A stretch of 47,623 nt of DNA. Source: a virus. Under the pieces are notes generated by a model. That model was given only the letters and a program-made list of their open reading frames with translations. It did not search any database and had not been told where the DNA came from. Positions 7,335-42,368 of this stretch are shown piece by piece. Positions within the stretch are counted from its first letter, which is position 1. The number at the start of each line of letters is the position of its first letter. The stretch lies in the IMG/VR virus record IMGVR_UViG_3300033155_000806, positions 1-47,623 of that record; one strand, 5' to 3'. The translations under genes were made by a program, and so were the position numbers.

Positions 7335-8356
7335 ATAACCCGTACCATTGAATGACGACATCCAATATGCGGCAGTAAGTTCCGATATTTCCACCCCTTC
7401 GAATTGCCTTTGAGAGATTCCGTTTTTACAATTTCGTGTAAACGTTTGCGAGATACGCCTTTACCTTTGCCTTCTTTTGCTATTTGTTGTTTGATTGCTT
7501 TACAAATGGCGGTCGTTCGTGCATCATTTGCTCCTATCCAGTCATAACGGAATTCATCATTTGGATCTCGTTCGGCATATCTCCGATCTCGAAGATTATT
7601 GGAGATTGAACTGTGCTCCGTTCGGACTATCGTTCGCGCCTGTGTAAAATCTATATCAGTTTCTTTTTCGATACGACGAGCAATACTATCTACTGTAAAC
7701 TCTCCTTTTTCTAACTCCTCTTCGATAATCTTTACAGTTTTTATTGTTTCGCCACGAGATGTACCTGAAAAGGTTGGAACATTCTTATGCAAGGTTTCAA
7801 GTTTTTTTCTTTCGTCCCTTGCTGTTTTTTCAGGAGATTTTGGTCTCCACTCCAATAAATTGTTTTTTTCAATTGCTGAATTTAATGTTGTCAGAGGTAT
7901 CTGCAATCCCGTCTGTTGGGTCATCCTAATAATTGAAGCGTTTACTGCTTTAGCGATATCAACCCGTTTCATGATGCCAGCGGCATAAATCATCCGATGT
8001 AGCGTCCAGAGAGTCTCCAGGGCGTCCTTCTTCATTGCCTTGCCCAATACCTCAAGCCGTTTCATAAAGGCAGGAGTAAGCTCATAGTCACGCTTCAGGA
8101 TGTCCATAACCTGTGCCTTTGACATCCGGGGATGGTAGATCATAGTATCTGCGTCATCGGACTTACGCAAGACTTTCCAAAGCTCGGCATCATTGTATCG
8201 CAAGTTGTTTCGCGGCATGGATCGCTTAAGTCCTTTCCGGTCGGCTTCTGGTTCATCACATCCACCGCGTCCGGCATTTGCGCCGATCCCTCTACCGCTG
8301 CCGTCGTGCTTTGGAGTGCGCAAGATGCGCCAGAGTTCTGTGTTGGATCGAGTCAT
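7331..8356 (-). CDS. MuF-like head morphogenesis protein
   Basis: 341 residues. The C-terminal third has the SPP1 gp7/Mu gpF signature: ARTIVRTEHSSISNNLRDRR, YDWIGANDARTTAICKAI and finally LPHIGCRHSMVRVI. These minor head proteins bind the portal during procapsid assembly. The N-terminal 65 residues hold two copies of an L-W-x-I/V-L-R motif (residues about 8-13 and 59-63) that also occurs in the portal and in a 218-residue neck-region protein. Its 3' half is more A+T-rich than its 5' half. It overlaps the preceding fibre gene by four bases and normally follows the portal, not the fibres. Confidence 0.82.
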   Translation of the reverse strand: MTRSNTELWRILRTPKHDGSGRGIGANAGRGGCDEPEADRKGLKRSMPRNNLRYNDAELWKVLRKSDDADTMIYHPRMSKAQVMDILKRDYELTPAFMKRLEVLGKAMKKDALETLWTLHRMIYAAGIMKRVDIAKAVNASIIRMTQQTGLQIPLTTLNSAIEKNNLLEWRPKSPEKTARDERKKLETLHKNVPTFSGTSRGETIKTVKIIEEELEKGEFTVDSIARRIEKETDIDFTQARTIVRTEHSSISNNLRDRRYAERDPNDEFRYDWIGANDARTTAICKAIKQQIAKEGKGKGVSRKRLHEIVKTESLKGNSKGWKYRNLLPHIGCRHSMVRVI

Positions 8357-10152
8357 AATGTATATTCCACGTCCTCATAGACGACTTCACTGATAGTCTC
8401 TTCGACTGTCTCCAATGCGTCTGACAAATTGTACTTGGTCTTACCGTTATTCCCGTCCTTATCGATCTTGAGTGCTTTGCCGGATGTTTTGTCGATGACG
8501 TATCCTTCTTTCATTTTGTGCTTCGTGACGGTCTTCTCTTGCATCTTCTGCACCCGCTGCACCTTCGGTTCGCCAGTCAGTTCGTCAAGGGTGTACTGGT
8601 CTTCCATGACTTTGCGCTTGATCGTGACGGTCTTCTTTGGTGCGTTTGCACAGGACTGGTGCATTGGAATGGTGAGGATGTCGCCGATTTCGTTGTGCCC
8701 TATGAGGTATAGCACAAGAATCTCGCCGTCCTCGAATGCTTTGCCACACTTCGGGCAGTGTGTATCAGAGAAGACGAGGTCTGATGAGGCAGCCCATGAT
8801 GGAGCCACGTTCGATCCGCCCGTCGTTAGTTGGTATCCATCCGTTCCCGGTGCCAGTACTTCAACATCCGTATTCCCATCGTACCATATTCCGCCCCAAG
8901 CGAACGAATATGGATTGATCTTCCACACATCTCCGAACCCAGTTCCAGGACTGCACCCATCTACATATTTCGCATCATAAGTGTCGCCCGAGACGCCTGT
9001 GCCACCACGAGCAACTGGGAGTGTGCCGGAGGTGATGGTTGCTGCGGACTGGTTATGTGCGCTCGGTGGATACGTACTCGGCTTCCCACTGATCGATGCC
9101 CATGCCCACGAACCGGATGTGCACGCGCGTGCAGATGGGTGTGAGTAGTTGTTGAAATTCGCCTCACACCATGCCTTCGTGGCTGCGTCCTGCGCTGCTG
9201 CGGGATCGGCGAGAGATTCAATCTTCTTGGAAGACATACACAATCCATGCATTATTCTTAGTCGGGGTGTATCTGTAACTCCAGCAATTTCTAATGCACA
9301 TACTTGACCAGTCTTTGCCGCGTTCGTTGCATAAAACGAGATATATCCTGGATCTGGTGTATACTGATCTTCCGGAACGAGAGCTATATATGGGCCGTGG
9401 CTTCCAGATGCTCCCCCTTGCAAGTGTAATACATGTTCATCATCGTGGCCATAAAGCGTGTGTACTCCAATAATATCCTTATAATTCAAGTTCAGATTGC
9501 CACTCATTGCCCGCGAACCACTCGCAAGCAAATACTGTGTGTGGTCATCATCAGTGAGACCGGTGAGGGCACCATGGTCGGTGACGCCGCCGCCACCTGT
9601 AGTTTCCACCCACACTGCCGCCGTTAAAGTAGCATCAAGACAGACATATTCCTTATTCGCTGTCGTGTTGAACCATCTTGATTCGACTGCATATCCATCA
9701 CCTGTGTCATCATTTACCGTTGGGGCTGTGGTGCCTATATTGGACTTGATCACCTCATACGCTCCGGCTCCGGTCTTGCGCATGGACCCGTCACCGCCAG
9801 AGAAATCAGAATCCATCACCGCCCCGGCAGCCGCAACATTGGTTGCATCCGTGACGTCAGCGCCCGTTTCAACACCATCCAACTTATCACTATCAGCGTC
9901 TGTGAACGCTTGCTCGCCAGTATCAGGATATTTAGTTGCTCTCGGCTCGATTCCATCCAACTTATCACTATCAGCGTCTGTGAACGCTTGCTCGCCAGTA
10001 TCAGGATACTTGGTCGCCTCTGTCTGTTCGACCGCTATAATTCCGTCACCATCAGGATCATATACGCTCTTTAGCATATCGGCATCGCTGCCTGCCATTG
10101 CAAGTACTTCTGCAAGCGTCTTTCCCTGTAAGCGGTTCGAGTCTTTAATCAT
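8353..10152 (-). CDS. Tail fibre protein with zinc-finger C-terminal domain (fibre A)
   Basis: 599 residues. The N-terminal region carries two identical 26-residue repeats and then GVETGADVTDATNV, a collagen-free fibre repeat typical of phage tail fibres. The middle is Gly/Ser/Thr-rich and beta-structured (DDDHTQYLLASGSRAMSGNL). The last 160 residues begin with a cysteine/histidine knuckle (THCPKCGK, then MHQSC) followed by a Lys/Thr/Val-rich segment. That end is nearly identical to the end of the next fibre gene. It would bind the host surface. Start overlaps the upstream stop as ATGA. Confidence 0.8.
   Translation of the reverse strand: MIKDSNRLQGKTLAEVLAMAGSDADMLKSVYDPDGDGIIAVEQTEATKYPDTGEQAFTDADSDKLDGIEPRATKYPDTGEQAFTDADSDKLDGVETGADVTDATNVAAAGAVMDSDFSGGDGSMRKTGAGAYEVIKSNIGTTAPTVNDDTGDGYAVESRWFNTTANKEYVCLDATLTAAVWVETTGGGGVTDHGALTGLTDDDHTQYLLASGSRAMSGNLNLNYKDIIGVHTLYGHDDEHVLHLQGGASGSHGPYIALVPEDQYTPDPGYISFYATNAAKTGQVCALEIAGVTDTPRLRIMHGLCMSSKKIESLADPAAAQDAATKAWCEANFNNYSHPSARACTSGSWAWASISGKPSTYPPSAHNQSAATITSGTLPVARGGTGVSGDTYDAKYVDGCSPGTGFGDVWKINPYSFAWGGIWYDGNTDVEVLAPGTDGYQLTTGGSNVAPSWAASSDLVFSDTHCPKCGKAFEDGEILVLYLIGHNEIGDILTIPMHQSCANAPKKTVTIKRKVMEDQYTLDELTGEPKVQRVQKMQEKTVTKHKMKEGYVIDKTSGKALKIDKDGNNGKTKYNLSDALETVEETISEVVYEDVEYTL
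8508..8796. repeat. Long direct repeat inside fibre A (copy 1)
   Basis: About 289 bases that closely match 10298-10586 in the same orientation, offset by 1,790 bases. The region codes the zinc-knuckle part of both fibre C-termini. Identity is near complete over long blocks, such as the stretch around CTATGAGGTATAGCACAAGA. Such repeats allow recombination that would delete or exchange fibre bodies. Confidence 0.85.
9875..10008. repeat. Tandem 78-base repeat in fibre A
   Basis: The block beginning CCATCCAACTTATCAC at 9875 is repeated at 9953, a period of 78 bases (26 codons), with 56 bases identical in both copies. It encodes the DKLDG-x-E repeat of the fibre shaft. Copy-number change here would alter fibre length without shifting the frame. 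Confidence 0.85.
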
Positions 10153-22470: not shown

Positions 22471-22633
22471 CGGTAATTATAAAAAGATTCCGAGAGAGAG
22501 AAGGATAGAGATAGAGATAGAGATAGAGATAGAGATAGAGATAGAGATAGAGAGAAATAAAGAAAGCTATTTATTTCTTTATCTATCTCTCTATCTCTCT
22601 ATCTCTCTATCTCTCTATCTCTCTCTCGGAATC
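22471..22633. repeat. (ATAGAG)n / (ATCTCTCT)n inverted element, copy 1
   Basis: The left arm has eight ATAGAG hexamers (22505-22552) and the right arm five ATCTCTCT octamers (22585-22624). Outer arms GATTCCGAGAGAG (22486-22498) and CTCTCTCGGAATC (22621-22633) are perfect complements, and AGAAATAAA/TTTATTTCT pair around the centre. The whole could fold into a stem of about 70 bases with bulges caused by the 6- versus 8-base periods. A related copy with shared flanks lies at 36388-36508. Possible roles are replication origin, packaging signal or enhancer. Confidence 0.85.
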
Positions 22634-24219: not shown

Positions 24220-25605
24220 TTACTTGTTGAAGTATCCGCCAAACATGCTGGAGAGATCAACCACATCCGCTGCTTGTGCCAGCTGCGCGTAGCATCCTGA
24301 CGCGGAATCGACAATATCATCGTGTACACCATTCGGGAATAGTTCAAGCTCCGAGAGGAACGCATTCAACCACACGGCATTCACGACTTTAACATCGCCT
24401 CTGGATGCCGCCGCACTAAAAGGCTGCGCTCGAACCGTCTTGCTGCCGCTGCTTGGGATCCCATAGAACGCATATCCGGCGAGAAGTTTGGCGTAGGTAG
24501 CAATAACCCCTTTGCCGGACGATCCCGGCTCCTGCTCCATGTATATCAGCGTTTCAATGCCGTCCACCTGCGCCGTCTGCCGGATGAGTGCCTCCACATC
24601 CCCTGGCTTCTTCCTGACCCGGATCACGTCCTTGACATAATACGAACCAGCTGCCTCAACCATCAGCACGCCAACCGTCCAATCCGGATCGCTGCCCTTC
24701 TTCGCTTCAGTCGCCGCCAGATCCCAGAAACGCACCTGCCGCCCATGCGGTACGGTGTCAACGATCTCGAACCATGTACGCTCGAATAATCCACCGGTCT
24801 TGGTGTAGGGGGATTGCTGATACATCGCATACCAGTAATATTGCCCAACCGTTTCCCGTATGTTCTCAAGTGCCGCAAGATTATACCGATCCGCCCATAG
24901 TGGCTCGCCAACCTTACGCCCAAGTGTGTCATTCTCTTCTGCGATTGCCGGAAAGTTCAGAACGTCCCACTGTTCCCCGCCTCGTTCCATCTCACTCAAC
25001 AGCCGCCCTCCGAGGTCGTCTTGATGCCACCGGGTTTGAATAAGGATGATAGCCCCCCCTGGCTCAAGTCGCGTGTATGCCGTGCTCTGATACCATTCCC
25101 CCAGTTTTTCGCGCTTAACCTCGCTATGCGCCTCTTCCGAGTTCTTAATCGGGTCGTCAATTATGAATAGGTGCGCCCCCTTACCGGTGATCGGACCCCC
25201 TGCACCGGCGGTGTTCATGCCGCCATCATGTTTGGCAATGTCCCACCGGTTGCGTGCGGATGAATCAGAAGCCACCGAGACACCAAAAATATCCCCCCCA
25301 TACTCCTCCAAGATGTTACGCGCTTTCCATCCCCATGACGCTGCAAAGTCCGCCTCATAGCTCGACAGGATAATCCTATGATCCGGGTGATGTCCAAGAT
25401 ACCATGCTGGAAAATACTTGCTGATCATCTCCGATTTCCCGTGACGTGGCGGCATGAAGACCATGAGCCGCTTAAGTTTCCCGGCTGTAATCTGCGTGAG
25501 CTTGTCGGAAAGCATCAGAAGGTGATTGGCTGCCTGCCACCTACCCCTACTTGCAGTGATAGCGAAGAGGGCAGGGGTTACGGTTTCATGCATAATATGT
25601 AGCAT
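24220..25605 (-). CDS. terL: Terminase large subunit
   Basis: 461 residues. ATPase domain: Walker A PPRHGKSE at 52-59, Walker B LFIIDDP at 146-152. Nuclease domain: acidic residues Asp295 (RFWDLAA), Glu357 (YMEQEPG) and Asp429-430 (HDDIVDSASG), the RNase H-like triad used for genome cutting. It powers DNA packaging into the procapsid through the portal. Start ATG 25605 overlaps the end of a small membrane peptide gene; a second ATG four codons on is possible. The final codon overlaps a repeated leader element. Confidence 0.92.
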   Translation of the reverse strand: MLHIMHETVTPALFAITASRGRWQAANHLLMLSDKLTQITAGKLKRLMVFMPPRHGKSEMISKYFPAWYLGHHPDHRIILSSYEADFAASWGWKARNILEEYGGDIFGVSVASDSSARNRWDIAKHDGGMNTAGAGGPITGKGAHLFIIDDPIKNSEEAHSEVKREKLGEWYQSTAYTRLEPGGAIILIQTRWHQDDLGGRLLSEMERGGEQWDVLNFPAIAEENDTLGRKVGEPLWADRYNLAALENIRETVGQYYWYAMYQQSPYTKTGGLFERTWFEIVDTVPHGRQVRFWDLAATEAKKGSDPDWTVGVLMVEAAGSYYVKDVIRVRKKPGDVEALIRQTAQVDGIETLIYMEQEPGSSGKGVIATYAKLLAGYAFYGIPSSGSKTVRAQPFSAAASRGDVKVVNAVWLNAFLSELELFPNGVHDDIVDSASGCYAQLAQAADVVDLSSMFGGYFNK

Positions 25606-31918: not shown

Positions 31919-33721
31919 TTATGAAAATTCCGTTTCCGTTTTAATGTCAAATCGATTTCTACTCTCCCATTCCGCCCTTTTTCCGGAATTATACGCCGTT
32001 ACCGGACGATAAAAGCCTGTAACTCTGTCCCACACAGTAGTTTCTGCTTTACATGTCGGGCACACCCCCGATAAATCATTGATCACGCCACAATTCGGAC
32101 ATACTGCGTATGCGCGGGTGAGTGCCAAATAGGGGATAGAAGTGTTCGTGCAGACATTCTTTATGAGGTCTTTGATCCCCCCTGCACTTGGCGCAGACTC
32201 CCCACAGAATATGTGAAACAGTGTACCGCCGTTATAATGCTTTTTGAACCGTTCCTGGATGCGCAACGATTCGCCAAGCCCAAGTTCATCACCCACGTAA
32301 ATATGGGACGAGTTTGTATAGAATACGCCATCCCCGTCACCTTGTGTAATTAAGTCCGGGTAGTTTACTTTGTCTTTCAATGCAAGACTGTGTGAGCAGC
32401 CTTCTGCTGGCGACTCTTCAAGATTATACGGATGTCCGTGTTCTTTTGTCAATTTACGAACGTACGCATGCATATAACTCAGTACGCCGTCTACAAAATC
32501 AACACATTCATAAATAGGTTTGCCGAACATGTTTAAACAAGCCTCGTTCATTCCAACGAGTCCAATCGTCGAGAAGAACGAATCAAAATTCTTCATGTAG
32601 CTTTTTGTGAATGGCATCAGCCCCATCTCGAATCCTTCATTGATCTTCTCTCGCTTCCATTCGCTGTGTTGGTGTGCTGCTTCGAGTAACCCATCAAGAC
32701 AAGTATAGAACGCTGCTATCAGATCTTGATACAAGGATTCTGACATCAGATCGTTGACATCTGCACGCGCGAGATACCCAAGTTGTGGCATATTGATTGT
32801 GACAACACTCAACGATCCAGTGCCAACACCAGCGTTCCATAATCCACCTTTCGACGCTTCTACAACGTCCTCAAGCCTCAAATTCAAACGACAACACATA
32901 GAACGAGTGGAGGATGGATCAAGACCTGATCCTATATATGACATGAAGTATGGCGTACCGAACTTTGCTGTAAGCTCGAATAACTTGTTTGTCACCTTGC
33001 AGTCCCAATCAAAATCCTTTGTTATCGAGTAGGTAGGTATCGGGAAAGTGTGCGGATTACCATTCTTGTCGCCGTCCTTCATAACTTCGATAAATGCCAA
33101 ATTTATCATATCCATTTCATGTTGAAATTCGCTGTATGTGCGGTCTTGCGGCATCCCGCCAATAATAACTGGTTCATTCATCATGTGTGCAGGGCATTTG
33201 AGATCAAAACTCCAATTCGTAAACGGTGTTTGAAATGCCGCTCTCAGAGGATATGAAAGGTTAAATACTGCTCGCTGAATTGATTGTTTCACAGATTTGA
33301 AATCCAAATTATCATAATATACAAATGGAGCGAGCAACGTATCGAAATTGCTATAAGCCTGCGCGCCTTCCCATTCGTTCTGTGAAACGTACATCGAATT
33401 AACGATGTGATCAACTGCAACGTCGAAATGTTTCGCTGGCGTGGATGATGTCCCAGAAGGATTCTTTACGCCTTCCATGAGCAACTGTGTTAAGTCCATG
33501 CCCCTGCAATATGCACTCCATATTCCACCAGATAAATCATGTAGATGCATTGCACCAGATCTATGATGCTCCGCAGCGGGAGATTGCGACAATGTCGATT
33601 CTTTCAATACCGTTGCAGCGATCTGTGCTTTGAGCCCGCTGATGGAAAACGATGTGTTTGCGTTCTCGTTGCACGTTCCGTTCTTCAAATACTCTCTTAT
33701 TATATTATTTATTTCTTTCAT
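31919..33721 (-). CDS. nrdD: Anaerobic (class III) ribonucleoside-triphosphate reductase
   Basis: 600 residues. It lacks the N-terminal ATP-cone and begins at the catalytic barrel (HLHDLSGG; ANTS-like start). The glycyl radical site is RVTGFY with Gly569, preceded by a zinc ribbon CPNCG/CPTCK (541-556). Thiyl-radical cysteines are likely in KCPAHM and SMCCRLNL. It reduces ribonucleotides to deoxyribonucleotides under anoxic conditions. No activase (NrdG) gene is found, so it would depend on the host's. A GTAGGTGATAGATT leader precedes the ATG. Confidence 0.92.
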   Translation of the reverse strand: MKEINNIIREYLKNGTCNENANTSFSISGLKAQIAATVLKESTLSQSPAAEHHRSGAMHLHDLSGGIWSAYCRGMDLTQLLMEGVKNPSGTSSTPAKHFDVAVDHIVNSMYVSQNEWEGAQAYSNFDTLLAPFVYYDNLDFKSVKQSIQRAVFNLSYPLRAAFQTPFTNWSFDLKCPAHMMNEPVIIGGMPQDRTYSEFQHEMDMINLAFIEVMKDGDKNGNPHTFPIPTYSITKDFDWDCKVTNKLFELTAKFGTPYFMSYIGSGLDPSSTRSMCCRLNLRLEDVVEASKGGLWNAGVGTGSLSVVTINMPQLGYLARADVNDLMSESLYQDLIAAFYTCLDGLLEAAHQHSEWKREKINEGFEMGLMPFTKSYMKNFDSFFSTIGLVGMNEACLNMFGKPIYECVDFVDGVLSYMHAYVRKLTKEHGHPYNLEESPAEGCSHSLALKDKVNYPDLITQGDGDGVFYTNSSHIYVGDELGLGESLRIQERFKKHYNGGTLFHIFCGESAPSAGGIKDLIKNVCTNTSIPYLALTRAYAVCPNCGVINDLSGVCPTCKAETTVWDRVTGFYRPVTAYNSGKRAEWESRNRFDIKTETEFS

Positions 33722-36387: not shown

Positions 36388-36508
<121 letters not shown>

Positions 36509-38329: not shown

Positions 38330-40012
38330 TCAATCCCTCCGTTCTGGATGGAACTCTGCGCGTACGTCCTCCATCTCTTCTGGAGTTTCCACATCCGGGT
38401 CATACCCGCCCGCTCCTGCGAGCTGTATCAGGTCATCCTGGGCAGCTGATAGATACTTCGTTGCTTCTCTTGATCGCTCTTGTAACCTCTCGATAGTGCC
38501 CCGGAACTCTACTGTGATCACGGGAATCGTCTTCTTATACCGTTCGCCCTTTGGCGTGACTTCTTTCGTCCGGTATATAAGGGTCATCGGCATGAATGCG
38601 AGCCGTCCGCCCGCTCGCTTTGCAATCTCTGAGCACAATGCGAGACTCGCAAGTATCCCCTTAATGCTGTTCCATCCCGTCGTTCTGAACCGATACACCG
38701 TCCCAACACTGTTTTGCCCGTCCACCAGGACTGTAAGTATGCCGTGTGGCTTCACCTCCGGATCTTGTAGAAACCTGTGCTCCCCATTTGGGTCTTCAAT
38801 GTAAGTCTTTGACCCATCCGGGTTTGTAACTGCCCAGTTCATACCATCCCCACGGATCTTTATCCCGCCAGCCCCATACTTTGCGTAGAACGTCGTGAAG
38901 CATTCGGTGATATCATCTGATAACAGCCGCACCGGTAGCTCTGTGCAGTTCTCGCCATATAGGTCTGTCATCTCCTCATTTACAAGGAAATCCCCGGTTT
39001 TGGGGTCTTTTTCCGGCAGGGTAAAGACGAAATGGTCAAAGGTTTCTGCACCTTTTCCAGAACTCCTTTTTTTTCCGATCCTGATTCCACCCGCCTCCGT
39101 AAGTTGTGGCGGACCCAGATTCCGTATCATCGGTGCGATGAACGTTGCCGAATCGATTTGCTTTCTGGTTGTGCCATCTGCTATCCCATCTGTTGCCTTC
39201 TGTGTCTCTGCGTAGTCCAGCAGTGCTTCTGCTGATGCGAATTCCTTACCGTCTGGTGCTGTCCATATCTTCGTTTTAGTGTCTTCTTCCGCCATCTTCG
39301 TATCCTCCTCTGCTTGTGTTTCAGTCGTATCCGGTTCGGGTACAACTGCTCTTTCTGGTATCACTATCGGCACGTCACTGTCGTCCCATACTGGTTTCTC
39401 AACTGTTGCGGATTCCGCAACTGTTGCCTCCTTCATGTTCGCTGGGTTTCGATCACAGTCCTTGATATGATCCCGGTGCCGCATTTTCACATCATCCAAG
39501 TCCATGCCCTCAATTCGTTCATCGCAATGTGGGCATGTCCTTGAATATATCTTCTCTTCAAGTCCTGGCGGTGTGACTGGCTCCCGCTTCGGTGGCTCTG
39601 CTGGGGTTGGTGCACCATCCTCTTCGCCATCCGGATCGCTTGTCAGCAGTGGCGGGTGCATATTCCCTTTCCTGCCCGTCCATCCTGCTGCCATCAGATC
39701 CCGGGCAATCTCGTATGTGATCGGCTTCTGCGGTGGCTTACTACGCTTCAGGAATGCTGCAGTATGTTTGCATCCGTCGTTGTCATGCGCGTGTTTCCAC
39801 GCCGGGCAGCCACAAGCAATCTCCAGAACGTCATCTGTCTGCCGCAGCAGGAGTGGATATATATTCTCTCCATGCTGACAGATATGAGCGTTCTCACTTG
39901 CGCGCATCCAGATATAATCATCCGCTTCTTCCGCTGCCGTCTTGAGTGTCTTGAAATGCGTCACAACGTCCTTCACGCGAACGAATCGGGTTATCTCTGA
40001 GTCTATAGTCAT
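38330..40012 (-). CDS. SWIM zinc-finger and Gp3-like recombination protein
   Basis: 560 residues. Residues 60-90 contain a SWIM finger (CGCPAWKHAH, then GCKHTAAF; Cys67, Cys69, Cys81, His83). A C2H2-like knuckle lies near 158-186 (CPHCDERIEG, HRDHIKDC). Residues about 290-520 match the Gp3-like, recombination-directionality-factor-like domain of phages: GIRIGKKRSSGKGAETFDHF, ELPVRLLSDDITECF, GTVYRFRTTGWNSIKG. Such proteins occur beside RecT-like and clamp genes. It precedes PCNA in reverse order and probably acts on DNA at replication or recombination. Confidence 0.78.
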   Translation of the reverse strand: MTIDSEITRFVRVKDVVTHFKTLKTAAEEADDYIWMRASENAHICQHGENIYPLLLRQTDDVLEIACGCPAWKHAHDNDGCKHTAAFLKRSKPPQKPITYEIARDLMAAGWTGRKGNMHPPLLTSDPDGEEDGAPTPAEPPKREPVTPPGLEEKIYSRTCPHCDERIEGMDLDDVKMRHRDHIKDCDRNPANMKEATVAESATVEKPVWDDSDVPIVIPERAVVPEPDTTETQAEEDTKMAEEDTKTKIWTAPDGKEFASAEALLDYAETQKATDGIADGTTRKQIDSATFIAPMIRNLGPPQLTEAGGIRIGKKRSSGKGAETFDHFVFTLPEKDPKTGDFLVNEEMTDLYGENCTELPVRLLSDDITECFTTFYAKYGAGGIKIRGDGMNWAVTNPDGSKTYIEDPNGEHRFLQDPEVKPHGILTVLVDGQNSVGTVYRFRTTGWNSIKGILASLALCSEIAKRAGGRLAFMPMTLIYRTKEVTPKGERYKKTIPVITVEFRGTIERLQERSREATKYLSAAQDDLIQLAGAGGYDPDVETPEEMEDVRAEFHPERRD

Positions 40013-40021
40013 ATTATTGCC

Positions 40022-40768
40022 TCAATCACTCTCGATCCGCGGAGCAAGCATGAACTGAACCGCCACGCCATCGTGCGCATACTCAATTTCACATGGTCGA
40101 TCGGTCAGGAGCTTGAATAGCACATTATCAGATGCTTTCATATCCACCGCGATGTCCTGGAGGATATCCGTCGAATACAGACACGATGCATCACTCTCGA
40201 AATGCTCACCATACAAATCAGTAGACAATGTAGCGGTGTACGTGTCTGTCTTTTTAAAATCGGTTTCAGCACTGACCGTCATTCCCTCATACGTCGCATG
40301 AATGAGGACCTGGTCACCATAATCTGCTGCTTCTGCAACGATGTCTTTGAACGTCTTTCCTGGCATCCTGAACAATGCTGTATGATTCGGCGTGTGTGGC
40401 TCAGTCCTTTTTCGGAGTCGTTCTGGGTCGAGCAAGCTCATTGATTTCTGATGGATTCCATGGGCAAATTGCCATACTTCATCATCCCCGCCGATGCTGA
40501 TCATATCCTTCACGGTCACTCTTTTCAGGACTTTTTCAGCAAGTATGTCAAGATCGATTCCAATCCGCATATCGTCCGGATTATAGAAATCGAACGCCGC
40601 CCGTGGTAATGTTATCTGTACCATCAACGAGTTAGCTGGATTAACAAGTTTGCACGTCATCCCATCATCTTTGATCTCGAATATCGCCTCATCATCCAAC
40701 CTACGCAGTACGGATATGGCGTGCTTCAGCTTACTTGCTTTGATTTGTGCTTCGAGTGTTTGTGTCAT
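40022..40768 (-). CDS. pcn: PCNA-type DNA sliding clamp
   Basis: 248 residues, the standard length. Opens with a domain-1 strand-helix (FEIKDDGMTCKLVNPANSL) and includes the interdomain connector region around LSLDPERLRK-like sequence. It ends LAPRIESD, the classic C-terminus of archaeal and eukaryotic PCNA that binds partner PIP motifs. As a trimeric ring it would tether polymerases and nucleases. No viral DNA polymerase is present, so it presumably recruits host enzymes or competes with host PCNA. Confidence 0.92.
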   Translation of the reverse strand: MTQTLEAQIKASKLKHAISVLRRLDDEAIFEIKDDGMTCKLVNPANSLMVQITLPRAAFDFYNPDDMRIGIDLDILAEKVLKRVTVKDMISIGGDDEVWQFAHGIHQKSMSLLDPERLRKRTEPHTPNHTALFRMPGKTFKDIVAEAADYGDQVLIHATYEGMTVSAETDFKKTDTYTATLSTDLYGEHFESDASCLYSTDILQDIAVDMKASDNVLFKLLTDRPCEIEYAHDGVAVQFMLAPRIESD

Positions 40769-41106
40769 ATCTCCACCTCGCTTATCTCGATCAGTCCCTC
40801 GTACGCTGCGAGTAGCTCAACCAAGTGCCGCCGCACCTCTTCTGCATACAAAGATGGTTTCACCGTTACACTAATGAATGCAGTTTCTTTGCTCTCATCA
40901 GATAGCGCATACATTCCTGTGCTGCGGTTGTATGTCAGATAGCTGTACTCAACCATCTTGGTCTTATAATCCTGCTTCTGCCGCGTGATGCTGAATTCCC
41001 TCAAGATTGTGTTCAGTCCTTCTTCAGTTACCCGTCCGCCGCAAGCCTCAACTTTTCTTGTGATCTGCGCCATCCGGGTGCTCATGCTGTCTTGTCTTAG
41101 TGTCAT
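40765..41106 (-). CDS. Hypothetical protein with helix-turn-helix-like N-terminus
   Basis: 113 residues. The first 60 residues (RMAQITRKVEACGGRVTEEG, NTILREFSITRQ, VEYSYLTYNRSTGMYALS) look like a winged helix with a wing ending in Y-x-L. The rest is a long strand-rich segment and final helix. It overlaps the PCNA start by four bases. Role not known. Confidence 0.55.
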   Translation of the reverse strand: MTLRQDSMSTRMAQITRKVEACGGRVTEEGLNTILREFSITRQKQDYKTKMVEYSYLTYNRSTGMYALSDESKETAFISVTVKPSLYAEEVRRHLVELLAAYEGLIEISEVEI

Positions 41107-41114
41107 GTTCTCAC

Positions 41115-41420
41115 TTATCCGCCTCGATGTTGTCTTCTGCTTCTCGGATCTCCAGAGGCGTCATGCTTGGCTCCGCTTTCTGGTGTGTCCAATGAGGATA
41201 TTCCTATACTGAAATGCTCGCGCCGTCCCTGATATTCAATAGCGTGTTCGTGCGCGTGGCGGATCATCGATATGCTGATCTTAGCCTTGTTCATCGCATC
41301 GATCAAGAACTTGAGCACATTACCCTCATCAAAAAAGGACTCTTCCGAATCGGGGTCCTTCGGCACTTGATCCGCGAATGCCGCTGGATCAATCTTAATT
41401 ACTCTGTGTTGTGTTGCCAT
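41115..41420 (-). CDS. Hypothetical protein, 101 aa
   Basis: From ATG 41420, four bases after the stop of the Csx16-like gene. Begins MATQHRVIKIDPAAFADQVP and has FFDEGNVLKFLIDAMNKAKI in the middle, with a basic/His-rich end (HEHAIEYQGRREHFSIG). Second gene of the operon led by the Csx16-like protein, so it may share that function. No family is recognised. Confidence 0.6.
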   Translation of the reverse strand: MATQHRVIKIDPAAFADQVPKDPDSEESFFDEGNVLKFLIDAMNKAKISISMIRHAHEHAIEYQGRREHFSIGISSLDTPESGAKHDASGDPRSRRQHRGG

Positions 41421-41424
41421 CGTT

Positions 41425-41745
41425 CTACACCACCTCTGTTTCGATGTGTGTGATCTGAATGAGGCTCGCGCCATATTCATCCATCATCGCTGGCGTCAAT
41501 TCTTTCCCGCGTGCGTCCGCTGGAAGATTTGGCAGGACGAGGAGGATAAATTCCGCTCCACTGTCGAGTATATCTGCGATCATCGGTACTGGTAGCGTGC
41601 CGATATACTTGTCGCCGGGAACTACAGTTCCGTCGAATTGATCCACGATCTGTCCATCAAATCCTTTCGATTTGATCCATTCCACTGCTCCAAGATGTCT
41701 GGAAATAATCCAGGTCAGTGATTCATTCTCTTTTCTGTCATACAT
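41425..41745 (-). CDS. csx16: Csx16-family CRISPR-associated-type protein
   Basis: 106 residues, the usual Csx16 length. Conserved features: an S-R-H-x-G-A-x-E-W start (residues 15-23), PGDKYIGTLPV (43-53), ILDSGAEFILLVLPNLPADARGKEL (59-83) and a final GASLIQITH. Csx16 proteins are found with type III CRISPR systems, where I recall related Csx families being linked to handling of cyclic oligoadenylate. No cas genes or arrays are near, and it is the first gene of the early operon, which is what a viral anti-defence protein would look like. The functional inference is unproven. Confidence 0.82.
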   Translation of the reverse strand: MYDRKENESLTWIISRHLGAVEWIKSKGFDGQIVDQFDGTVVPGDKYIGTLPVPMIADILDSGAEFILLVLPNLPADARGKELTPAMMDEYGASLIQITHIETEVV

Positions 41746-41790
41746 GTTTTTTCACATCCTGTAAGTTTGCGCCATCTGCGCATCTTACAG

Positions 41791-41820
41791 TATATATGTT
41801 ATACGTGATCGTATATAAAG
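41791..41820 (-). promoter_or_regulatory. Promoter region of the first early operon
   Basis: Two TATA-like cores on the minus strand, CATATATAC (41791-41798) and CTTTATATA (41812-41820). They would give leaders of about 24 and 45 bases to ATG 41745. The ATG is preceded by AGGATGTGAAAAAAC, the leader shared with three other genes. Confidence 0.6.
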
Positions 41821-41947
41821 GGTGCGGTGTGTTGTGTGCGATAACCGCATATAAGCCACGAATCACGAAAAGAAGCTATAAGAAAAGAGTAAAACAATTG
41901 GAGCTGCACAGAGCCCCTCTGTGAGACGCTACACGACCCCTGCACAA

Positions 41948-42097
41948 TCACTCGCTGGACTCAACGATCTCCTCAGGAGCGGCTTCTTTGGAGTGCCGCC
42001 ATACCTCGCAGGAACTGCCGCCACATTCATCCTTGCAATCCTTACACAGGTGGCATACGTCTATGTAGGTTAATCGGACCTTGGATTCATCGCTCAT
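41948..42097 (-). CDS. Cysteine-rich small protein, 49 aa
   Basis: From ATG 42097. Contains VCHLCKDCKDECGGSSC, six cysteines in a row of 17 residues, and an acidic tail (EEIVESSE). The layout suggests a compact metal-binding or disulfide knot. It overlaps the upstream structural gene by 11 bases. Unrecognised; it is the last gene before the 200-base gap in front of the early operon. Confidence 0.55.
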   Translation of the reverse strand: MSDESKVRLTYIDVCHLCKDCKDECGGSSCEVWRHSKEAAPEEIVESSE

Positions 42098-42368
42098 AAC
42101 AATTAATCTCAATGCTGCGTTCGTCCGTCCGTCCCAGATCGGTCGTGATCTTGCAACTGACAATATAATGCGTTCCGACCGTCCCGCCGGAGAGCCACAC
42201 GGTCACAACGCCATCGTGTTCATTATCCCGATCCTTCACAAGACCCGTTTCAACTGTGACCTCATAAGAGGCGATTAACTCCTCCGATTGCAACCAGAGC
42301 TTTGAGAACCAGTCGAACGCGTACTCAAGCACCGCGTTCGGGTCTTTTGTGAAGGATTTCTCGACCAT
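42087..42368 (-). CDS. Virion-associated beta protein, 93 aa
   Basis: Begins MVEKSFTKDPNAVLEYAFDW and ends with VVTVWLSGGTVGTHYIVSCK and GRTDERSIEINCYER. This F-x-K-D-P-x-A-V-L-D-Y-x-F-D-W ... V-T-V-W-L-x-G-G-T-x-G-T-x-Y-x-V-x-C ... G-R-x-x-x-R-S-I pattern is common in small proteins next to phage fibre genes. Likely a fibre or spike base protein. Confidence 0.75.
   Translation of the reverse strand: MVEKSFTKDPNAVLEYAFDWFSKLWLQSEELIASYEVTVETGLVKDRDNEHDGVVTVWLSGGTVGTHYIVSCKITTDLGRTDERSIEINCYER

Follow-up and report, generated by a model that had tools for sequence, protein, structure and literature searches.

Csx16 is already known as a ring nuclease. The cellular enzyme has been shown biochemically to be specific for cyclic tetra-adenylate (cA4), degrading cA4 but not cA6 (PMC12409355). 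The initial annotation of the gene described here had mentioned a link of related proteins to the binding or cleavage of cyclic oligoadenylates, and this link is not only correct but stronger than was stated. Viral ring nucleases that serve as anti-CRISPRs are known as well. AcrIII-1 (viral Crn2) is, like the protein proposed here, a virus-borne ring nuclease that destroys cA4; it is found in archaeal viruses, and no other ring nuclease is reported nearly as often in phage genomes (PMC12409355), but it belongs to a different protein family from Csx16. Viral Csx20, viral Crn4b and AcrIII-2 (the viral SAVED ring nuclease), again of other families, are phage or viral ring nucleases with a proposed or demonstrated anti-type III function. 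Overall, archaeal viruses have so far yielded few known anti-CRISPR proteins. Those archaeal anti-CRISPR genes that have been characterised often have strong early promoters, and the AcrIII-1 of SIRV2, which has no early promoter, failed as an anti-CRISPR when expressed from its native promoter (PMC11065993). As for Csx16 itself in viruses, Hoikkala et al. reported it in two phage genomes (PMC12409355), which are probably those of Methanobacterium virus Drs3 and of PhiF3. What we add to this knowledge is the leader position of csx16 in the genome of a complete archaeal tailed virus, and a much wider viral distribution of the family that includes virus-only clades.

The DNA that we analysed is a viral record of 47,623 nucleotides (IMGVR_UViG_3300033155_000806), referred to in full as the window. 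The gene under study is the following:

41425 to 41745, minus strand: csx16 open reading frame, ATG start, 106 amino acids; Csx16 (Cas_VVA1548) family, proposed cA4 ring nuclease and anti-type III CRISPR protein

The Csx16 pattern claimed for this protein is present in all three of its motifs: SRHLGAVEW (residues 15-23), GDKYIGTLPV (44-53) and GAEFILLVLPNLPADARGKEL (63-83). Three profile libraries agree on the assignment, with scores above the curated cutoffs where such cutoffs exist: Pfam PF09652 (3.8e-20, 72.3 bits, cutoff 25), NCBIfam TIGR02620 (1.3e-14, 54.2 bits, cutoff 46.35) and PADLOC Csx16 (1.3e-21). The annotation had let its proposal depend on a match to the Csx16 profiles, that of TIGR02620 in particular, and a significant match is clearly what was obtained. 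A profile built only from the cellular copies that we collected scored the window protein at 78.5 bits (E 4e-23), and reached at most 4.8 bits among 2,000 shuffles of the protein together with the other open reading frames of the window. The identity of this gene as a genuine csx16 is thus confirmed, far from what chance would produce.

The best explanation for the gene, to which we assign a probability of roughly 0.7, is that it encodes a virus-borne ring nuclease acting as an early anti-type III CRISPR protein. In the window we found neither a Cas1 or Cas10 match nor a CRISPR-like array, in line with the claim that cas genes and arrays are missing, and among the 25 of 51 PADLOC families listed for it only models of SNF2-kind helicases appeared besides Csx16. 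Since no CRISPR genes were found in the virus, the enzyme most likely switches off the immune alarm of the host. According to this reading, csx16 would be transcribed from a TATA-box promoter (41819-41812) as the first gene of an early/replication operon, and its product would form a small dimer with a derived CARF-like Rossmann fold, the dimer being taken from published models of the family. Upon sensing viral RNA, the host Cas10 would make cA4; Csx16 would bind this molecule and cut it into linear pieces, and the effectors that cA4 activates (Csx1, Can2, Cam1 and similar) would stay off. The removal of cA4 would take place at the start of infection. Both the activity of the window protein and a host with cA4 signalling are presumed here.

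Compared with the Csx16 of cellular type III loci, the window protein has the same family (PF09652 / TIGR02620), the same size, the same predicted order of structural elements and the same invariant residues. Five positions, R16, H17, G49, P52 and R79 (window numbering), are invariant in 74 of 74 viral and cellular rows, and the window protein keeps all of them. It differs from the cellular proteins in being viral, in standing in a genome where no cas genes were found, in heading what appears to be an early operon, and in carrying Q at the near-invariant position 36, where 70 of the 74 homologues have H; its identity to the cellular copies collected is at most 48%. A sequence search of the PDB with the window protein returned no relative. 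An AlphaFold2 model based on 74 sequences is confident (pLDDT 94.3, pTM 0.84) and predicts the element order E-H-E-E-H-E-H-E, identical to that predicted for a cellular Csx16 from Thiothrix. The initial annotation had proposed such a prediction together with a comparison to ring nucleases. The confident model was obtained but the significant ring nuclease match was not: Foldseek against the PDB gave nothing significant, the weak matches including the ring nucleases and CARF proteins 7z55, 8htw, 2wte and 8jbc. The cellular Csx16 used as a control likewise gave nothing significant, with 7z55, Cam1, the viral SAVED ring nuclease, Csm6 and 8htw among its weak matches. Because the control behaves like the window protein, Foldseek has little power for this family, and we dropped the structure comparison as a proof of a ring nuclease fold.

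The substitution at position 36 bears on an alternative in which viral Csx16 would function as a cyclic-nucleotide sponge, binding cA4 or another cyclic oligonucleotide tightly and blocking the signalling without cutting. The related Csx15 family has cA4-binding members that are not, or are barely, enzymatic (PMC13148439), the cited papers do not establish which residues of Csx16 are catalytic, and a Q in place of the usually conserved H36 would fit a protein of this kind. However, cellular Csx16 is a clear cA4 nuclease (PMC12409355), the invariant residues are all intact in the window protein, and type III systems make cyclic oligoadenylate in large amounts, for which a sponge is regarded as a poor countermeasure (PMC13148439). 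A sponge is, in our view, unlikely, and a cA4-cutting ring nuclease remains the preferred reading.

The distribution of the family further supports the anti-type III reading. Among 50,697 phage records searched by tblastn, the window Csx16 matched those of Drs3 (two records; 48%) and PhiF3 (31%) and no others. Like the window, these are tailed viruses of methanogens that have csx16 (AXN53384 in Drs3, QGZ14607 in PhiF3) and are without Cas1 or Cas10. In both, the gene lies near a genome end; in Drs3 it likewise leads a short co-directional gene run and has about 700 nt in front of it, whereas in PhiF3 no annotated gene comes after it in the record. When the genes of the window were compared with the stretches of Drs3 and PhiF3 that we collected, csx16 was the only match found, and the three are otherwise different viruses. 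The annotation of the two copies goes no further than 'putative CRISPR-associated protein' or 'Csx16 family'. Alignment scans of IMG/VR revealed 27 further viral records encoding Csx16, several of which show portal, terminase or tail genes, and ten viral proteins (eight from IMG/VR plus those of Drs3 and PhiF3) all exceeded the Pfam cutoff by a wide margin. Two further pattern matches in phage contigs (L002, L003) were rejected as chance or degenerate stretches that are not genes. None of the 30 viral records (the window, Drs3, PhiF3 and the 27 from IMG/VR) has Cas1 or Cas10, whereas in 67 of 80 cellular csx16 loci type III genes or ancillary ones lie no more than about 10 kb away. A scan of genome contigs with a Csx16 alignment of three viruses found nothing; in a second contig scan the cellular copies were bacterial only, mainly proteobacterial, and these two scans yielded no archaeal cellular source for the gene.

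It could also be argued that the target is not type III CRISPR but another cyclic-nucleotide defence, such as CBASS or a lone Cas10-like or CARF/SAVED system, given that a ring nuclease attacks the signal rather than the CRISPR complex and would thus affect every system that relies on that signal. Two observations make this quite improbable: cellular csx16 overwhelmingly adjoins type III genes, in the proportion just given, and the enzyme that was tested acts specifically on cA4, which is the principal signal of type III systems (PMC12409355).

In both of the trees that we built, the viral rows clustered (0 of 500 shuffles gave a value as low). The window, Drs3 and PhiF3 form a clade with support of 97/84 in one tree and 97/70 in the other. 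In the former, a separate virus-only clade (support 100/95) holds 22 of the 26 viral rows, and its members in the alignment have in common a deletion of about four residues around G63 (window numbering). The copy of the N4-like phage L017 falls apart from both viral clades; it is located just upstream of an RNA polymerase gene, a position that is likely to be early. Since the branches are long and the columns few, the number of viral origins is not settled by these trees. In three viral pairs, dN/dS was 0.05-0.15, indicating purifying selection on these viral genes; the window gene, which has no close relative, is not among them. We consider it reasonably probable that, besides being an off-switch of cells that viruses carry now and then, Csx16 forms an anti-type III family dedicated to viruses, with two or more viral lineages, one in methanogen viruses (window, Drs3, PhiF3) and a larger one of a shorter form in other viruses, and that it is far commoner in viruses than the two reported genomes would indicate. 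The contigs of the short-form clade (L006, L011-L016, L102-L124) are without Cas1 and Cas10. The neighbours of the short-form genes include a gene for a RecT-like annealing protein (L104) and one for an RNA ligase (L122).

Two sister viruses, G010 and G011 (IMGVR_UViG_3300022552_000012 and 3300021513_000015), have terminases 88% identical to that of the window and are syntenic with it over the structural half. They have no csx16, and in place of the early/replication half of the window (25.7-42.1 kb) they carry genes that show no relation to it at the DNA level, the exchange points lying near the small terminase gene and near the fiber-tail adaptor. This replacement, which takes in csx16, places the gene in an exchangeable early module. 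With the 560-aa protein (38330-40012) and PCNA as queries, no viruses with the same early module were found, and the 560-aa protein has no close relative in IMG/VR.

The absence of csx16 from the sister viruses, together with the fact that the family is best known from cellular loci, could be taken to mean that the gene is passenger cargo, acquired from a cellular type III locus and without a present function in the virus. We hold this to be very improbable, as the window Csx16 falls together with those of two methanogen viruses rather than within a cellular clade, has kept all the invariant residues and is encoded by the leader gene of its operon, and as purifying selection acts on viral copies elsewhere.

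The window is a complete archaeal tailed-virus genome. It carries a 114-base direct terminal repeat, from which we deduce that the genome is complete, with a size of about 47.5 kb. Almost all of its genes are on the minus strand, among them genes for the portal, terminase, major head protein, tail, baseplate, PCNA, SNF2 helicase, anaerobic ribonucleotide reductase and methyltransferase; no tRNA and no Rfam family were found in it. Its identity marker is:

24220 to 25605, minus strand: terminase large subunit (phrog_38, 6.2e-95)

The nearest named terminase, at 46%, is that of Caudoviricetes sp. vir524, the host of which belongs to Methanomicrobiales. All 17 phage records matching the window PCNA are archaeal viruses, and the portal matches nine records, which are haloarchaeal viruses and one virus of Methanofastidiosa. 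These relatives of the terminase, PCNA and portal point to an archaeon as the host, plausibly a methanogen of Methanomicrobia. One characterised Methanomicrobiales host, Methanoculleus bourgensis, is reported with a type I-U system, type III going unmentioned in the passages cited (PMC8540584). This, the Q at H36 and the absence of csx16 from G010 and G011 are among the points that speak against the anti-type III reading. The anaerobic ribonucleotide reductase (31919-33721; PF13597, 2.8e-144) is a full-length NrdD-type enzyme in an archaeal virus, and it has plasmid-borne bacterial homologues at about 40% identity.

The features around csx16, in the direction of transcription, are as follows:

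42087 to 42368, minus strand: gp77-like fiber-tail adaptor (PF23148, 3.5e-23), the last tail-module gene recognised ahead of csx16, with a conserved counterpart in sister virus G010
41907 to 41923, minus strand: perfect 7-bp hairpin, CACAGAG-GGG-CTCTGTG, with a T-rich stretch behind it, as read from the sequence
41812 to 41819, minus strand: archaeal TATA box, exact match, TTTATATA, putative promoter for early transcription of csx16 and the genes that follow
41752 to 41759, minus strand: Shine-Dalgarno-like site, GGATGTGA, 6 nt before the csx16 start, with one mismatch to GGAGGTGA
41115 to 41420, minus strand: open reading frame of 101 amino acids, 4 nt downstream of csx16 and in the same operon, no family match
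40765 to 41106, minus strand: open reading frame of 113 amino acids in the same operon, no significant family match
40022 to 40768, minus strand: PCNA-type sliding clamp (PF00705, 3.6e-08; PF02747, 2.4e-05), with relatives in archaeal viruses
38330 to 40012, minus strand: 560-aa protein with a Gp3-like recombination directionality factor domain (PF18897, 4.5e-25)

The tail genes end at 42087, perhaps followed after the adaptor by a small open reading frame (41948-42163), and the hairpin may possibly be the terminator of their transcript. Exact TATA boxes number 7 in the window, with 1.2 expected. From 24,032 to the right end, the coding strand has no exact copy other than the one in front of csx16, which suggests that the whole replication half of the genome has this box at its head. 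Shine-Dalgarno-like matches are common by chance, so that it is the position of GGATGTGA which is the evidence. The claim that csx16 is the leader gene is thereby borne out: with the hairpin, the exact TATA box and the Shine-Dalgarno-like site upstream of it, csx16 is the first gene after the putative early promoter, between the tail module and the replication module, the archaeal character of which is marked by PCNA. From the TATA box and the anatomy of the modules we infer that csx16 is expressed early. Such a leader position is what an anti-CRISPR protein of this kind would need, and it sets the gene apart from the AcrIII-1 of SIRV2 mentioned above. The 560-aa protein also has a weak N-terminal match to a SWIM-type zinc finger, joined to its Gp3-like domain.

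The initial annotation had also suggested the next gene (41115-41420) as a partner of csx16, and here we do not follow it, as this gene has no relative in any other csx16 virus examined. A conserved partnership was rejected more generally: most of the later genes likewise have no relatives in those viruses, and the two genes downstream of csx16 in Drs3 have none outside Drs3. Finally, a Csx16 that would act for the benefit of the infected cell or against competitors, for example by limiting toxic over-activation of type III effectors in a persistent infection, is the least probable reading, for although cellular ring nucleases serve to limit cyclic oligoadenylate levels (PMC12409355) and the Gp3-like domain may hint at integration, the families listed for the window include no recognised integrase, and the place of csx16 as leader of the replication operon points to early expression in a lytic cycle.

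With an early anti-type III ring nuclease as the preferred reading, the window Csx16 and the 29 further viral records are directly testable candidates for another class of viral ring nucleases; in one case, that of Drs3 and Methanobacterium formicicum, both the virus and its host have been isolated. The numbers found here suggest that surveys restricted to curated phage genomes undercount viral Csx16. Elsewhere in the window, a GAGATA simple-repeat tract occurs in two dispersed copies about 14 kb apart (22485-22574 and 36399-36502), with the left flank AGATTCCGAGAGAGAGA common to both and a right flank like AGAAATAAAG, and the tail gene at 8353-10152 contains a 78-nt tandem duplication (9860-10015).
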